From a virus, in IMG/VR virus record IMGVR_UViG_3300010885_003731, positions 1 through 43,768 of that record: a stretch of 43,768 nt of DNA, one strand, 5' to 3'. This document shows, piece after piece, positions 10,351-22,385 of this stretch. The position numbers and the translations under genes were made by a program. Below the pieces are notes generated by a model. The model was not told the origin of the DNA, ran no database searches, and saw nothing but the letters and a program-made list of their open reading frames with translations. Each line of letters opens with the position of its first letter. Within the stretch, counting starts at the first letter, position 1.

Positions 10351-10581
10351 TTAGTCTTGGATTTCCTCAAGAAGTATTTCCTGACGATATGTTTGAATGG
10401 CTTCATCAATCAAGTCCCAGACTTCATAGTCATCATTCATCTCAAAGTAGATAACCTCAGAGTCACCACTGGATTCATCGTAGAATATGGCTTTCCATAC
10501 TTCTACTTCCCCACCATCGTGTAAGTCAAGGGAGATTTTATACGAGCCATAGCCCGACATATTTACAATGATATCTGTCAT
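10351..10581 (-). CDS. Acidic small protein, 76 aa, first gene of the late arm
   Basis: Not recognised. Very acidic, with alternating strands and helices (ISLDLHDGGEVEVWKAIFYDES..., DDYEVWDLIDEAIQTYRQEILLEEI). It has no Shine-Dalgarno; an extended -10 (TGTTATGAT) ends six bases before the ATG, so its message is probably leaderless. It heads the leftward operon. Confidence 0.65.
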   Translation of the reverse strand: MTDIIVNMSGYGSYKISLDLHDGGEVEVWKAIFYDESSGDSEVIYFEMNDDYEVWDLIDEAIQTYRQEILLEEIQD

Positions 10582-10587
10582 ATTGCT

Positions 10588-10596
10588 ATCATAACA
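10588..10596 (-). promoter_or_regulatory. Leftward late-arm promoter (extended -10, leaderless)
   Basis: TGT-TATGAT on the minus strand, ending six bases before ATG 10581, the same spacing as the promoter at 1829. No convincing -35. Confidence 0.5.
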
Positions 10597-10669
10597 TATT
10601 GCAGGGATAGTTATTCTAAAAGTTCAGAAGTTGGCTGAAGCGGATGCGAGTGTACCCCACCCGAAAATG

Positions 10670-10683
10670 CGAACATACGTTCG
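10670..10683. promoter_or_regulatory. LexA/SOS-type operator palindrome
   Basis: CGAACATACGTTCG exactly fits the Gram-positive/actinobacterial LexA consensus CGAAC-RNRY-GTTCG. It lies about 75-90 bp upstream of the leftward operon promoter. The same half-site recurs in the inverted repeat at 10714-10740, with wider spacing. Binding by host LexA is inferred. Confidence 0.55.
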
Positions 10684-10713
10684 ATAAAATGGTCTGTTTG
10701 AACCCGTGTTTAT

Positions 10714-10740
10714 TCGAACAAGATACGGCGTGTTGTTCGA
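10714..10740. repeat. Inverted repeat, 8-bp arms
   Basis: TCGAACAA and TTGTTCGA separated by 11 bases, flanked by TTTAT and TAAAA. Likely an operator for a dimeric regulator, or a hairpin. Confidence 0.55.
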
Positions 10741-10899
10741 TAAAAGCCGACTTTAGATGAACAATCGATGAATAAATCCGCCATTTTCCCCGATTCTTGG
10801 CAAACCGGTCATAAAATCTAAGTAGTAGCAAGGGATTGGCGGTTTCGACCTGACCCCCTTCGCCTATTCGACAAGTTGATAACTACAAAGTGGACGCGA

Positions 10900-10972
10900 G
10901 CCTAGCCCCTAGCAGGGGTTTATTCAGGGGCAGAACCTGACTAGGCACGACTTAGGGCACGAGCCCCTAGGC
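10900..10972 (+). ncRNA. Structured leader element, copy A
   Basis: Seen: outer stem GCCTAG (10900-10905)/CTAGGC (10941-10946); inner hairpin CCCC/GGGG (10906-10918); second hairpin TCAGG/CCTGA with 7-base loop (10924-10940), the geometry of a tRNA T-arm; then ACGA and a third hairpin CTTAGGG/CCCTAGG with loop CACGAGC (10951-10971). AAAGGA and ATG 10990 follow. The same architecture, with different stem bases, recurs at 11212 and 11666. Probably a cis-regulatory RNA; I do not recognise the family. Confidence 0.6.
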
Positions 10973-10989
10973 AAAACAAAGGATGAACC

Positions 10990-11205
10990 ATGAGCAACTA
11001 CTCAAACGACTACGGAACTAAGGCACTAAAGGCAATCAACCGACTACAGGCAAAGCGTGAACTATGGCTAAAGTTTCATGTTTTGGACTTGCCATGTTGG
11101 GCAGGGGATTCGAACAAAATAGTCATTGAGTGCCCTTGTTCTCAATGTAAGGAAATAGTCAAATCTTGCGCAAACACGGGCAAGTATCCCGTCTGGATGG
11201 AATAA
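10990..11205 (+). CDS. Small cysteine-containing protein, 71 aa
   Basis: First gene of the rightward arm, not recognised. The N-terminal half is basic and helical (TKALKAINRLQAKRELWLKF). The C-terminal half has CPCSQC-x6-SC, suggestive of a small metal-binding knuckle. ATG 10990 follows AAAGGA by seven bases; a nearer ATG at 10983 opens only an 11-codon frame. Expression is probably governed by the structured leader just upstream. Confidence 0.65.
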   Translation: MSNYSNDYGTKALKAINRLQAKRELWLKFHVLDLPCWAGDSNKIVIECPCSQCKEIVKSCANTGKYPVWME

Positions 11206-11211
11206 GGATTC

Positions 11212-11277
11212 GCCTAGCAACCCTTGGGGGTTATTCGGGTTCATTACCCGACTAGGCACGCATGGCACAAGCCACGC
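11212..11277 (+). ncRNA. Structured leader element, copy B
   Basis: Outer stem GCCTAG (11212-11217)/CTAGGC (11252-11257); hairpin AACCC/GGGTT (11219-11232); T-arm-like hairpin TCGGG/CCCGA with 7-base loop TTCATTA (11235-11251); then ACGC and a third hairpin TGGC-ACAA-GCCA (11263-11274) containing the shared CACAAGC loop. AAAGGA precedes GTG 11303. Stem sequences differ from copy A but stay paired. Confidence 0.6.
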
Positions 11278-11302
11278 AACACAACTAACAAAGGAATAAA
11301 AA

Positions 11303-11554
11303 GTGATTAGTCTACAAGATGCAAAATACAATCTAAAAATCCGTTCTTCATTCAATGCAGGAAACCTAACCGCAAATGTTGAGTCGGGCGAAAAAAACGG
11401 TGAGGAGGTTCCCGTTTATGTTGTTCGCTCTTATGGTGTAGCCATTGCTAAGTGTTCACCATTCGCCAATGTTGATGTTTGGATAACTGATACTAAATAC
11501 AGCCAAACAACCAGCAAGCACACTAACCTAGTAAAAAAAGCGTGGGCTAACTAG
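11303..11554 (+). CDS. Small beta-rich protein, 83 aa, unknown
   Basis: Not recognised. Starts with GTG after AAAGGA (spacing seven). Sequence alternates short strands (NLTANVESGEKNGEEVPVYVVRSYGVAIAKC) and ends with a basic tail. The stop overlaps the next start as TAGTG. Led by copy B of the structured element. Confidence 0.65.
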   Translation: MISLQDAKYNLKIRSSFNAGNLTANVESGEKNGEEVPVYVVRSYGVAIAKCSPFANVDVWITDTKYSQTTSKHTNLVKKAWAN

Positions 11555-11658
11555 TGGCAAAGCATGCAGACAGTAAGCGCACCATCCAAGCCAAAGCCAA
11601 GACGCTAGTCTTGCGACAGGCACGCAAAGACAAGGCACAACTAAGGGCTATCAAGTAG
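11554..11658 (+). CDS. Very basic 34-aa peptide
   Basis: GTG start overlaps the previous stop (TAGTG), so translation would be coupled. The peptide is almost entirely Lys/Arg/Ala/Gln (MAKHADSKRTIQAKAKTLVL...RAIK) and helical, resembling small nucleic-acid-binding peptides. Short length limits confidence. Confidence 0.45.
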   Translation: MAKHADSKRTIQAKAKTLVLRQARKDKAQLRAIK

Positions 11659-11665
11659 CCTAAAC

Positions 11666-11734
11666 GCCTAGCCCGTTAGGGGTTTACCAAGTGCAAATCT
11701 TGGCTAGGCACGAACTAACCCAAAAGCGGTTAGT
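11666..11734 (+). ncRNA. Structured leader element, copy C
   Basis: Outer stem GCCTAG (11666-11671)/CTAGGC (11704-11709); hairpin CCC/GGG; T-arm-like hairpin CCAAG/CTTGG with 7-base loop (11687-11703); then ACGA and a 7-bp hairpin ACTAACC/GGTTAGT with loop CAAAAGC (11714-11734). AAAGG follows, before ATG 11753. Stem bases co-vary relative to copies A and B while joining bases and the third loop are conserved. Confidence 0.6.
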
Positions 11735-11752
11735 CATAAGAAAGGTAAAAAA

Positions 11753-11911
11753 ATGGTAAAGTTTCAAATAATCGCAAGAAGCCCCGAAGGTTGGCACCGT
11801 GTCTATTGGGCTCCAATGTTTGACACAGAAGCAGAAGCCAACGCATGGCTAGAAGAGGACCACGATTGGGACTGCCAAATAGACATCCTAGAAGTGGAGT
11901 TAGACGCATGA
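11753..11911 (+). CDS. Small protein, 52 aa, unknown
   Basis: Not recognised. MVKFQIIARSPEGWHRVYWAPMF then EAEANAWLEEDHDWDCQIDILEVEL: a beta-alpha-beta-like small fold, a pattern common among short phage proteins that modify or bind host factors. Expression from copy C of the leader element. Ends by ATGA overlap with the next gene. Confidence 0.6.
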   Translation: MVKFQIIARSPEGWHRVYWAPMFDTEAEANAWLEEDHDWDCQIDILEVELDA

Positions 11912-12024
11912 AACTTTGGAAACTAGCCCTAGGGTTTATCCTATTTTTCATCCTGATGAACACAGCATGGCACGCACAGGGACTAGAGACAATCCCTTTC
12001 ATCCCGATTATAACAATGCCATAA
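11908..12024 (+). CDS. Small membrane protein, 38 aa
   Basis: Overlaps the previous stop (ATGA). One hydrophobic segment after two lysines (MKLWKLALGFILFFILMNTAWHAQG) makes a single-pass membrane protein or signal anchor. No known family. Coupled translation supports it being real. Confidence 0.5.
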   Translation: MKLWKLALGFILFFILMNTAWHAQGLETIPFIPIITMP

Positions 12025-12030
12025 CGCAAC

Positions 12031-12058
12031 TTGACAAGTCCTAGGCTATGACTATAAA
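12031..12058 (+). promoter_or_regulatory. Sigma70-type promoter
   Basis: TTGACA, 16-base spacer, TATAAA. It reads into the gene-free repeat region, so its transcript may be non-coding or serve replication. Confidence 0.55.
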
Positions 12059-12266
12059 CTAGCCTTACAACTAAATAGAGTGAACTAATACAAGGTGGCG
12101 CATAATACCTTAGCAATCCGTGTCAAAATCCACCCTGCCCGATTTATTCGGGGATAAAGGCAAACGTTCGATTATAACGATTTGGTAACAAGCCAACAAA
12201 GGGCAAGTTTTTATGATAGACTTAGTTTGATGCCCGTTTATCTTTATAACGATTTGGTAACAAGCC

Positions 12267-12295
12267 TTGACATTCTCAAGAATCTATGCTAAGAA
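12267..12295 (+). promoter_or_regulatory. Promoter after repeat 2
   Basis: TTGACA, 17 bases, TAAGAA with TGC just before the -10. The -35 begins six bases after the repeat's last base. Confidence 0.55.
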
Positions 12296-12397
12296 AATCT
12301 GATTATAACGATTTGGTAACATGACCTCGGCGAGCGCAGTTTTCTGCTATGCTAGATTTGATACCCGTTTCGCTTTATAACGATTGCGTAACGCCTA

Positions 12398-12426
12398 TTG
12401 ACATTATGCACAAGAGGTGCTATGCG
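12398..12426 (+). promoter_or_regulatory. Promoter after repeat 4
   Basis: TTGACA, 17 bases, TATGCG with TGC just before the -10, at the same offset from its repeat as the promoters at 12267 and 12457. Confidence 0.55.
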
Positions 12427-12456
12427 ATTCGGTTTATAACGATTCGATAACATGGC

Positions 12457-12485
12457 TTGACAATACCCTGCCCATAGTGTAATGC
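12457..12485 (+). promoter_or_regulatory. Promoter after repeat 5
   Basis: TTGACA, 17 bases, TAATGC. Last of the repeat-linked series; it reads toward 12735. Confidence 0.5.
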
Positions 12486-12662
12486 GATTGCAGGAGACCG
12501 CTAGAGACACTTTCAGGGTATCCCCTTAGTGATAGTTCCATAAGAGGGCTAAGCCCGCCTACGGGTCGCTGGTGGCTTCCTAGGGCATAATGGCTTGTTC
12601 GGTGTGATTGGGATTGTTTTGATTCCGTTATGAAAACGTTATAAAAAAAGTGGCATTTCAAC

Positions 12663-12691
12663 TTGACAAGCGGTTCAGAGTGTGTTTAGAT
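12663..12691 (+). promoter_or_regulatory. Promoter of the 44-aa zinc-finger gene
   Basis: TTGACA, 17 bases, TTAGAT, about 45 bases upstream of ATG 12735. Confidence 0.55.
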
Positions 12692-12734
12692 AGATACATC
12701 AGCGGGAAATGCCCAAAGATAGATAGGTTCAAAA

Positions 12735-12869
12735 ATGGCACAGGTTACAACTTGCAATGATTGCGGATTCAGAGTGTATAACTATAGCGAAACAGCGCAA
12801 GCCGATTGGGATAACCATCCTTGCTCTACAGGCGACACCTTGAGCGAAGATGAAGAGGAAGAGGAGTAA
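12735..12869 (+). CDS. 44-aa zinc-finger-like acidic protein
   Basis: Not recognised as a named family. CNDC at residues 7-10 and HPC at residues 28-30 suggest one small zinc site; the C-terminus is almost all acidic (SEDEEEEE). Preceded by a consensus promoter and followed at once by a DnaA box. The ribosome binding site is weak (AGATAGG). Confidence 0.6.
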   Translation: MAQVTTCNDCGFRVYNYSETAQADWDNHPCSTGDTLSEDEEEEE

Positions 12870-13901: not shown

Positions 13902-13925
13902 AGAATAACAACTTGATAACAACAC

Positions 13926-13954
13926 TTGACAACTAGCAAAATCTGTATTACATT
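13926..13954 (+). promoter_or_regulatory. Promoter of the 13982 operon
   Basis: TTGACA, 17 bases, TACATT; leader of about 20 nt with AAAGGAG. It probably drives the long coupled cluster of small genes up to the helicase. Confidence 0.6.
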
Positions 13955-22108: not shown

Positions 22109-22181
22109 GCCTCTACTGGTGTTATGCGTTTTTCTCCTCCTTTGTACGCATAGTATGAGTTCGATTCTCATCCGAGGCACG
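22109..22181 (+). ncRNA. tRNA-like element with anti-Shine-Dalgarno loop (or degenerate tRNA)
   Basis: GCCTC (22109-22113) pairs with GAGGC (22174-22178). ATGAG/CTCAT with the canonical T-loop TTCGATT (22155-22171) is a true-looking T-arm. Between them is a hairpin ATGCGT/ACGCAT (22124-22151) whose 16-base loop contains TCCTCCTTTGT (22135-22145). There is no D-stem and no ordinary anticodon loop. The 3' end GGCACGA resembles the three leader elements at 10900, 11212 and 11666. The loop is an 11-base perfect complement of the primase-gene ribosome binding region (22372-22382). Confidence 0.5.
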
Positions 22182-22279: not shown

Positions 22280-22352
22280 TGACCATTAGCTCAATTGGTA
22301 GAGCAAGGTGCTGTTAACACCGAGGTTTCAGGTTCGAGTCCTGAATGGTCAG
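22280..22352 (+). tRNA. tRNA-Asn (GTT)
   Basis: All arms are present: acceptor TGACCAT/ATGGTCA, D-arm GCTC/GAGC with GGTA in its loop, anticodon loop CTGTTAA (anticodon GTT), T-arm TCAGG/CCTGA with loop TTCGAGT, and discriminator G. The anticodon stem has one end mismatch (A-G). CCA is not encoded. Lies in the 5' leader of the primase-helicase gene. Confidence 0.92.
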
Positions 22353-22385
22353 CAAGGAGAAAACGTAACTAACAAAGGAGGATAT

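Follow-up and report, generated by a model that had tools for sequence, protein, structure and literature searches.

Three repeated RNA elements between positions 10900 and 11712 of the viral contig analysed here (43,768 nucleotides, hereafter "the window") are tRNA mimics, in which an acceptor-like closing stem carries a T-arm and ends in the tail ACG. Our best explanation is that these minimal, D-armless mimics act as intercistronic signals for RNase P and tRNA 3′-end processing ("tRNA punctuation"); we regard it as evenly poised, the cleavage itself being inferred. A little short of that, and tentative, stands the broader proposal of a mitochondria-like scheme in which the operons of DNA phages from several actinobacteria-infecting lineages are punctuated by such mimics, cut by host tRNA maturation enzymes and forming an undescribed RNA family. 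The terminase of the window is 43–45% identical to those of Arthrobacter phages, and its virus probably infects actinobacteria.

Three tRNA-like elements and their surroundings

A first-pass annotation had placed three copies of a structured RNA with paired stems at 10900, 11212 and 11666, each ahead of a small gene. These positions are exact (10900–10949, 11212–11260 and 11666–11712, all on the + strand), the listed stems are present in all three copies, and short ORFs follow at 10990–11205, 11303–11554 and 11753–11911:

10900–10949, + strand: tRNA-like element copy 1; acceptor-like stem 10900–10905/10941–10946, hairpin 10906–10918
10924–10940, + strand: T-arm of copy 1, loop GGCAGAA; tail ACG at 10947–10949
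10951–10971, + strand: second hairpin, 1 nt past the copy 1 tail (−9.3 kcal/mol; 2% of shuffles equally good)
10990–11205, + strand: small ORF (71 aa) 3′ of copy 1, without family match
11212–11260, + strand: tRNA-like element copy 2, 6 nt past the stop codon of ORF 10990–11205
11235–11251, + strand: T-arm of copy 2, loop TTCATTA; tail ACG at 11258–11260
11263–11274, + strand: second hairpin 3′ of copy 2 (−4.8 kcal/mol; 3.7% of shuffles equally good)
11303–11554, + strand: small ORF (83 aa) of the KYSxTTS protein family, common to other actinophages
11666–11712, + strand: tRNA-like element copy 3, 7 nt past the stop codon of a 34-aa ORF
11687–11703, + strand: T-arm of copy 3, loop TGCAAAT; tail ACG at 11710–11712
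11714–11734, + strand: second hairpin 3′ of copy 3 (−7.6 kcal/mol, z −5.3)
11753–11911, + strand: small ORF (52 aa) 3′ of copy 3, without family match

Every copy is closed by the 6-bp stem GCCTAG/CTAGGC and has a short hairpin, with stems CCCC/GGGG, AACCC/GGGTT and CCC/GGG in copies 1, 2 and 3. The 5-bp stem with 7-nt loop, which the annotation had likened to a T-arm for its geometry, is joined directly to the closing stem and is a T-arm by sequence as well. Each copy, folded in isolation by energy alone, adopts the expected structure, with MFEs of −32.6, −27.4 and −25.6 kcal/mol and z-scores of −2.4, −4.2 and −2.7. Copies 2 and 3 start 6–7 nt past the stop codon of the preceding ORF and are therefore intercistronic; copy 1 is the only one in the window without an upstream ORF.

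The protein encoded at 11303–11554 has the C-terminus KYSxTTSxxxNxxxxAW, lacks a Pfam match, and belongs to a family found in freshwater-type phages and, weakly, in Streptomyces and Gordonia phages. Several of its homologues adjoin tRNA-like elements; since none was seen by eye before the homologues in L238, L240 and L246, the element is not tied to this gene. Elsewhere in the window, collagen-like repeats with a 9-base period occupy the minus strand of 142–1690, probably a tail fibre.

The structure had not been recognised in the first-pass annotation, and Rfam 15 holds no family for it either: nothing at the copies reached the gathering score, and nothing credible appeared at E up to 10 (10600–12100), the only sub-threshold matches being unrelated and elsewhere. 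This check did not refute the claim of a structured RNA. Compared with tRNA (RF00005), the elements share an acceptor stem with a stacked 5-bp T-stem, a 7-nt T-loop, G53–C61 and C56, but their acceptor has 6 bp rather than 7, and one short-loop hairpin stands in place of the D-arm and the 7-nt anticodon loop. They match tRNA neither at the Rfam gathering score nor by ARAGORN, whose sole call on the window is a tRNA-Asn at 22280–22353. Could they nevertheless be functional D-armless tRNAs that decode codons? Their acceptor, T-arm and N73–C74 are as in phage tRNAs, but the middle hairpin has a loop of 3–6 nt in most copies and not a 7-nt anticodon loop; we rejected a decoding role on this ground and give it almost no credence.

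Covariation and tRNA identity

Across an alignment of 21 elements from the window and other phages, pairing holds in 99.6% of cells, and both partners vary in 10 of the 11 pairs. The covariation score of 0.770 compares with 0.176 for shuffles and with no more than 0.135 after sliding. The alignment (A8) contains only stem, T-loop and tail letters, the variable middle being excluded because MAFFT misaligned the different acceptor types. The earlier claim of a selected RNA with compensatory change is thereby borne out in elements from unrelated phages, and the check for covariation in related phages, which might have refuted it, did not. Selection bias has to be considered: 12 of the 21 elements came from descriptors or scores that favour pairing, and the T-arm-blind and tail-blind tests described below therefore carry the main weight.

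G53–C61, C56, A73 and C74 (tRNA numbering) are invariant in all 21 elements. The most strongly covarying loop columns are positions 54 and 58 (MI 0.88, p about 1.5e-4 in a shuffling test that takes no account of relatedness). In tRNAs, these two T-loop positions (T54–A58) form a reverse-Hoogsteen pair. The combinations seen in the elements are T-A, A-A, C-C, G-G and T-T, all of which suit a trans Watson-Crick/Hoogsteen pair, and the odd T-loops of copies 1 and 2 are explained by this covariation of 54 and 58 as a T-loop pair. The tail agrees too: true actinophage tRNAs have an almost invariant C74 and seldom C75, with a tail of the same kind, A-C-(G/T/A), as that of the mimics. The tRNA genes of the actinophages L113, L114, L249 and L250 nearly always encode C74 and seldom C75-A76.

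Forms intermediate between tRNA and mimic were found in the window, in L051, where ARAGORN calls a tRNA-Thr with tail ACGCAACAACAC, and in Gordonia phage OneUp, whose middle hairpin retains a 5-bp stem and 7-nt loop. The window example has a true tRNA as its neighbour:

22109–22181, + strand: fourth, more tRNA-like element, a degenerate tRNA without D-arm, tail ACG; acceptor GCCTC/GAGGC, stem TATGCG/CGCATA with an 18-nt loop, T-arm ATGAG-TTCGATT-CTCAT
22280–22353, + strand: true tRNA-Asn (GTT) with tail GCA, likewise intergenic

The fourth element rests on a weak covariance-model match (E 2.6) to its 3′ part, the whole being read by eye; it sits just before the tRNA-Asn and was missed by ARAGORN and Rfam. 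Annotated "undetermined" phage tRNAs, such as L114 38158–38230 and L249 4110–4258, may include such elements. Phages often carry tRNAs, and with 22109–22181 and L051 looking intermediate one might see in the mimics no more than functionless, decaying tRNA genes. We disfavour this as very improbable: compensatory change in 10 of 11 pairs needs selection, and so do several copies per operon with different stems and strict placement.

Placement at gene borders and blind searches

Elements start 5–17 nt past the stop codon of the upstream ORF in copies 2 and 3 and in most relatives, and they lie on the coding strand, so that the criterion of a tRNA-like domain at gene borders, as for tRNA punctuation and t-elements, is met. 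In the cultured Gordonia phages, the element of BrutonGaster occupies 89631–89687 on the minus strand, just past the stop codon of gene 170 (89699), and that of OneUp lies just past the stop codon of gene 169 (91369). A Shine-Dalgarno and start codon lie downstream of the window copies and of several relatives. At 0–3 nt past the tail, a second hairpin begins in 13 of the 14 ACG elements inspected, most of these hairpins being significant against shuffles. It is absent after three elements with tail ACT (L074, L044 and the second L005 copy), which lie 3′ of a gene and run directly into a TTGACA promoter, as the L299 element also does; the ACT elements of L314 and L357 do precede genes. The word "leader" in the first-pass annotation is thus only partly apt, for genes follow the window copies, but most copies are directly 3′ of a stop codon, and for some the next feature is a promoter.

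This placement invites a reading in which the mimics are barriers that mark or protect mRNA 3′ ends, possibly CCA-added like the tRNA-like ends of plant viruses, with the separation of transcripts not primary. The distance of 5–17 nt from stop codons and the run of L074, L044, the second L005 copy and L299 into promoters speak for it; copy 1, which has no upstream gene, and the Shine-Dalgarno and gene downstream of many elements speak against it. We consider 3′-end protection rather unlikely, but it remains a live rival.

A cis regulator of transcription, an antiterminator or attenuator of, for example, the put type, would also be a repeated structured RNA with at least two stem-loops per gene. 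Such a role would leave the post-stop positions and the tRNA invariants unexplained, and no terminator-like T-run lies downstream on the + strand; it is a very unlikely explanation. An intrinsic terminator was itself rejected, no stem with T-run being found on the + strand of 10500–12800. An array of TTATAACGATTTGGTAACA units with 59/72-bp spacing occupies 12171–12462 (and 13902–13931) of the window, several units being followed by TTGACA promoter-like sequence, with similar units in L036, L044 and L074; the array may consist of operators and promoters or be a replication origin.

The link between T-arm, tail and position was examined in searches blind to one of them. A scan of viral contigs for closing stem and tail only, which ignored the T-arm, returned 32 stretches; with the tail ACG, a full T-arm was present in 8 of 31 distinct non-window viral matches, all eight having G53–C61 and C56 and a stop codon 3–22 nt upstream. 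With the scrambled tail GAC, the count was 0 of 32, and with ACT 6 of 108; among 84,980 bacterial and archaeal genomes, it was 1 of 108, on a Propionibacteriaceae MAG contig. From these counts, the T-arm goes with the ACG tail and with viruses. Conversely, in a tail-blind search, AC follows every acceptor-plus-T-arm match 3–20 nt past a stop codon (18/18); at other distances, each bin has 3–5 matches, and their tails are mixed. About half of the loci in this test had originally been fetched with ACG in the pattern; the L044, L074, L077, L162 and OneUp elements were not fetched via their own tail.

Two other approaches were less useful. A covariance model of the CTAG-type copies (R1) found its own members again and added a few others, among them the second L005 copy (E 0.003) and L162 (E 0.04); as it is biased to one acceptor sequence, we preferred a descriptor search accompanied by controls. 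When context was disregarded, a loose scan by score returned almost as many matches from reversed as from real sequence, and we relied on it solely in combination with context filters.

Related elements are also found in unrelated actinophages, the acceptor sequences differing widely. By descriptor search, L036, which its terminase places close to the window, has the closing stems CCCGTG/CACGGG and GGCGTG/CACGCC, L162 has TCCCTA/TAGGGG and three further candidates in nearby gaps of one operon, OneUp has GCGATG/CATCGC, and L242 has GCCAG/CTGGC with the T-arm CTAGGGTTCAAGTCCCTAG. The elements accompany at least four different terminase types (window, L012, L162/L314/L357 and Oneupvirus); the L012-type terminase is 48% identical to those of Streptomyces phages, and an element with GCCCCGC/GCGGGGT is present in OX376641, a relative of this type. 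In L019 and L033, the second copies overlap promoter-like sequence and are of lower confidence. No convincing element was found in the Arthrobacter phages Amigo and Molivia, the nearest by terminase, or in Streptomyces phage Immanuel3. The known hosts are all actinobacterial (Gordonia and the Propionibacteriaceae MAG).

A possible processing signal

The first-pass annotation had left open a cis-regulator, a processing site or a binding site for a phage protein. Processing is the best supported of these, though cleavage has not been shown. In each copy, the 6-bp acceptor-like stem and T-arm are stacked as an 11-bp helix, a single short hairpin is all that is left of D-arm and anticodon arm, and the end is A73-C74-G75. 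Such a mimic typically has the stop codon of the preceding gene on one side and the Shine-Dalgarno of the following gene on the other. If tRNA punctuation is correct, host RNase P would read the acceptor/T-arm domain together with the 3′ R73-C74 and cut on the 5′ side, and a tRNA 3′-processing enzyme of the RNase Z type would cut at or just past the discriminator A73. The polycistronic early transcript would thereby be split, the upstream mRNA ending a few nucleotides past its stop codon and the downstream mRNA beginning with the second hairpin, which might shield the new 5′ end. The sequences establish the structure with its covariation, tail and second hairpin, the tRNA identity and the position; cleavage and its benefit, the enzymes and the effect on mRNA stability are all inferred.

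For RNase P, the acceptor stem forms a single recognition domain with the T-stem and T-loop (PMC11143913), and U294-G293-G292 of its RNA pairs with R73-C74-C75, the RCC motif (PMC12710915). In the elements, which keep this domain, A73 and C74 are invariant and C75 is G or T; C75 is mostly missing from true actinophage tRNAs as well. Its replacement should weaken RNase P binding. Further points against punctuation are the lack of transcript or cleavage data, the stacked helix of 11 bp in comparison with 12 bp in tRNA, and the positions: with copy 1 lacking an upstream gene and L074 and L044 lying before a promoter, a single role would have to account for elements at 5′, middle and 3′ positions alike.

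The same observations leave room for a mimic that is bound and not cut, with a phage or host protein that recognises tRNA acceptor/T-arms, be it EF-Tu, a tRNA-modifying enzyme or a phage protein, controlling translation or stability of the neighbouring genes. The structure is strongly conserved and the spacing to stop codon and Shine-Dalgarno similar in many elements, as a binding site would have it. About half of the elements lack U55, however, so the usual T-loop pseudouridylation is impossible there, the acceptor sequences vary, and no partner protein has been identified. Binding without cleavage is a live rival, in our judgement an unlikely one.

tRNA-like processing signals are already known from mitochondria and plant RNA viruses. 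In plant mitochondria, t-elements, which resemble tRNAs and lie at the borders of mRNAs, bring in RNase P and RNase Z. In the tRNA punctuation model, tRNAs at mRNA borders recruit these two enzymes to process polycistronic RNA (PMC8601606). The phage elements likewise are tRNA-like structures at gene borders, but are much smaller, lie in bacteriophage operons and are repeated beside tiny genes, and their cleavage is not shown. With RNase P model substrates (acceptor stem plus T-arm) they share the recognised domain and R73-C74 (PMC11143913, PMC12710915), except that those are synthetic and end in RCC(A), whereas the phage elements are natural, end in ACG or ACT and have an extra hairpin. The tRNA-like structures of the plant RNA viruses TYMV and TMV are RNase P substrates (PMC12710915) and also are viral RNA mimicking tRNA; they contain pseudoknots and lie at the genome 3′ end with CCA, whereas no pseudoknot is evident in the phage elements, several of which are found in the intergenic gaps of a DNA phage genome. 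The SAS/ESAS of cluster K mycobacteriophages, finally, resemble them in recurring ahead of many small actinophage genes and in being able to pair, but ESAS are 17-bp imperfect inverted repeats beside a 13-bp SAS, with no T-arm described (PMC3203893). No copy of the SAS 13-bp GGGATAGGAGCCC, a motif placed beside start codons, was found near the elements at up to 3 mismatches, and with no SAS at the window copies this identity was rejected. Repeated intercistronic tRNA-like elements in bacteriophages were not described in the open-access literature searched.

If the punctuation reading is true, the elements would be natural minimal substrates for bacterial RNase P and may lie behind some of the phage tRNA calls that are "undetermined" or score low. 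With two cultured Gordonia phages carrying them, the proposal is directly testable. Phages with dense arrays of tiny genes may, in that case, control each gene post-transcriptionally by means of the tRNA enzymes of their hosts.
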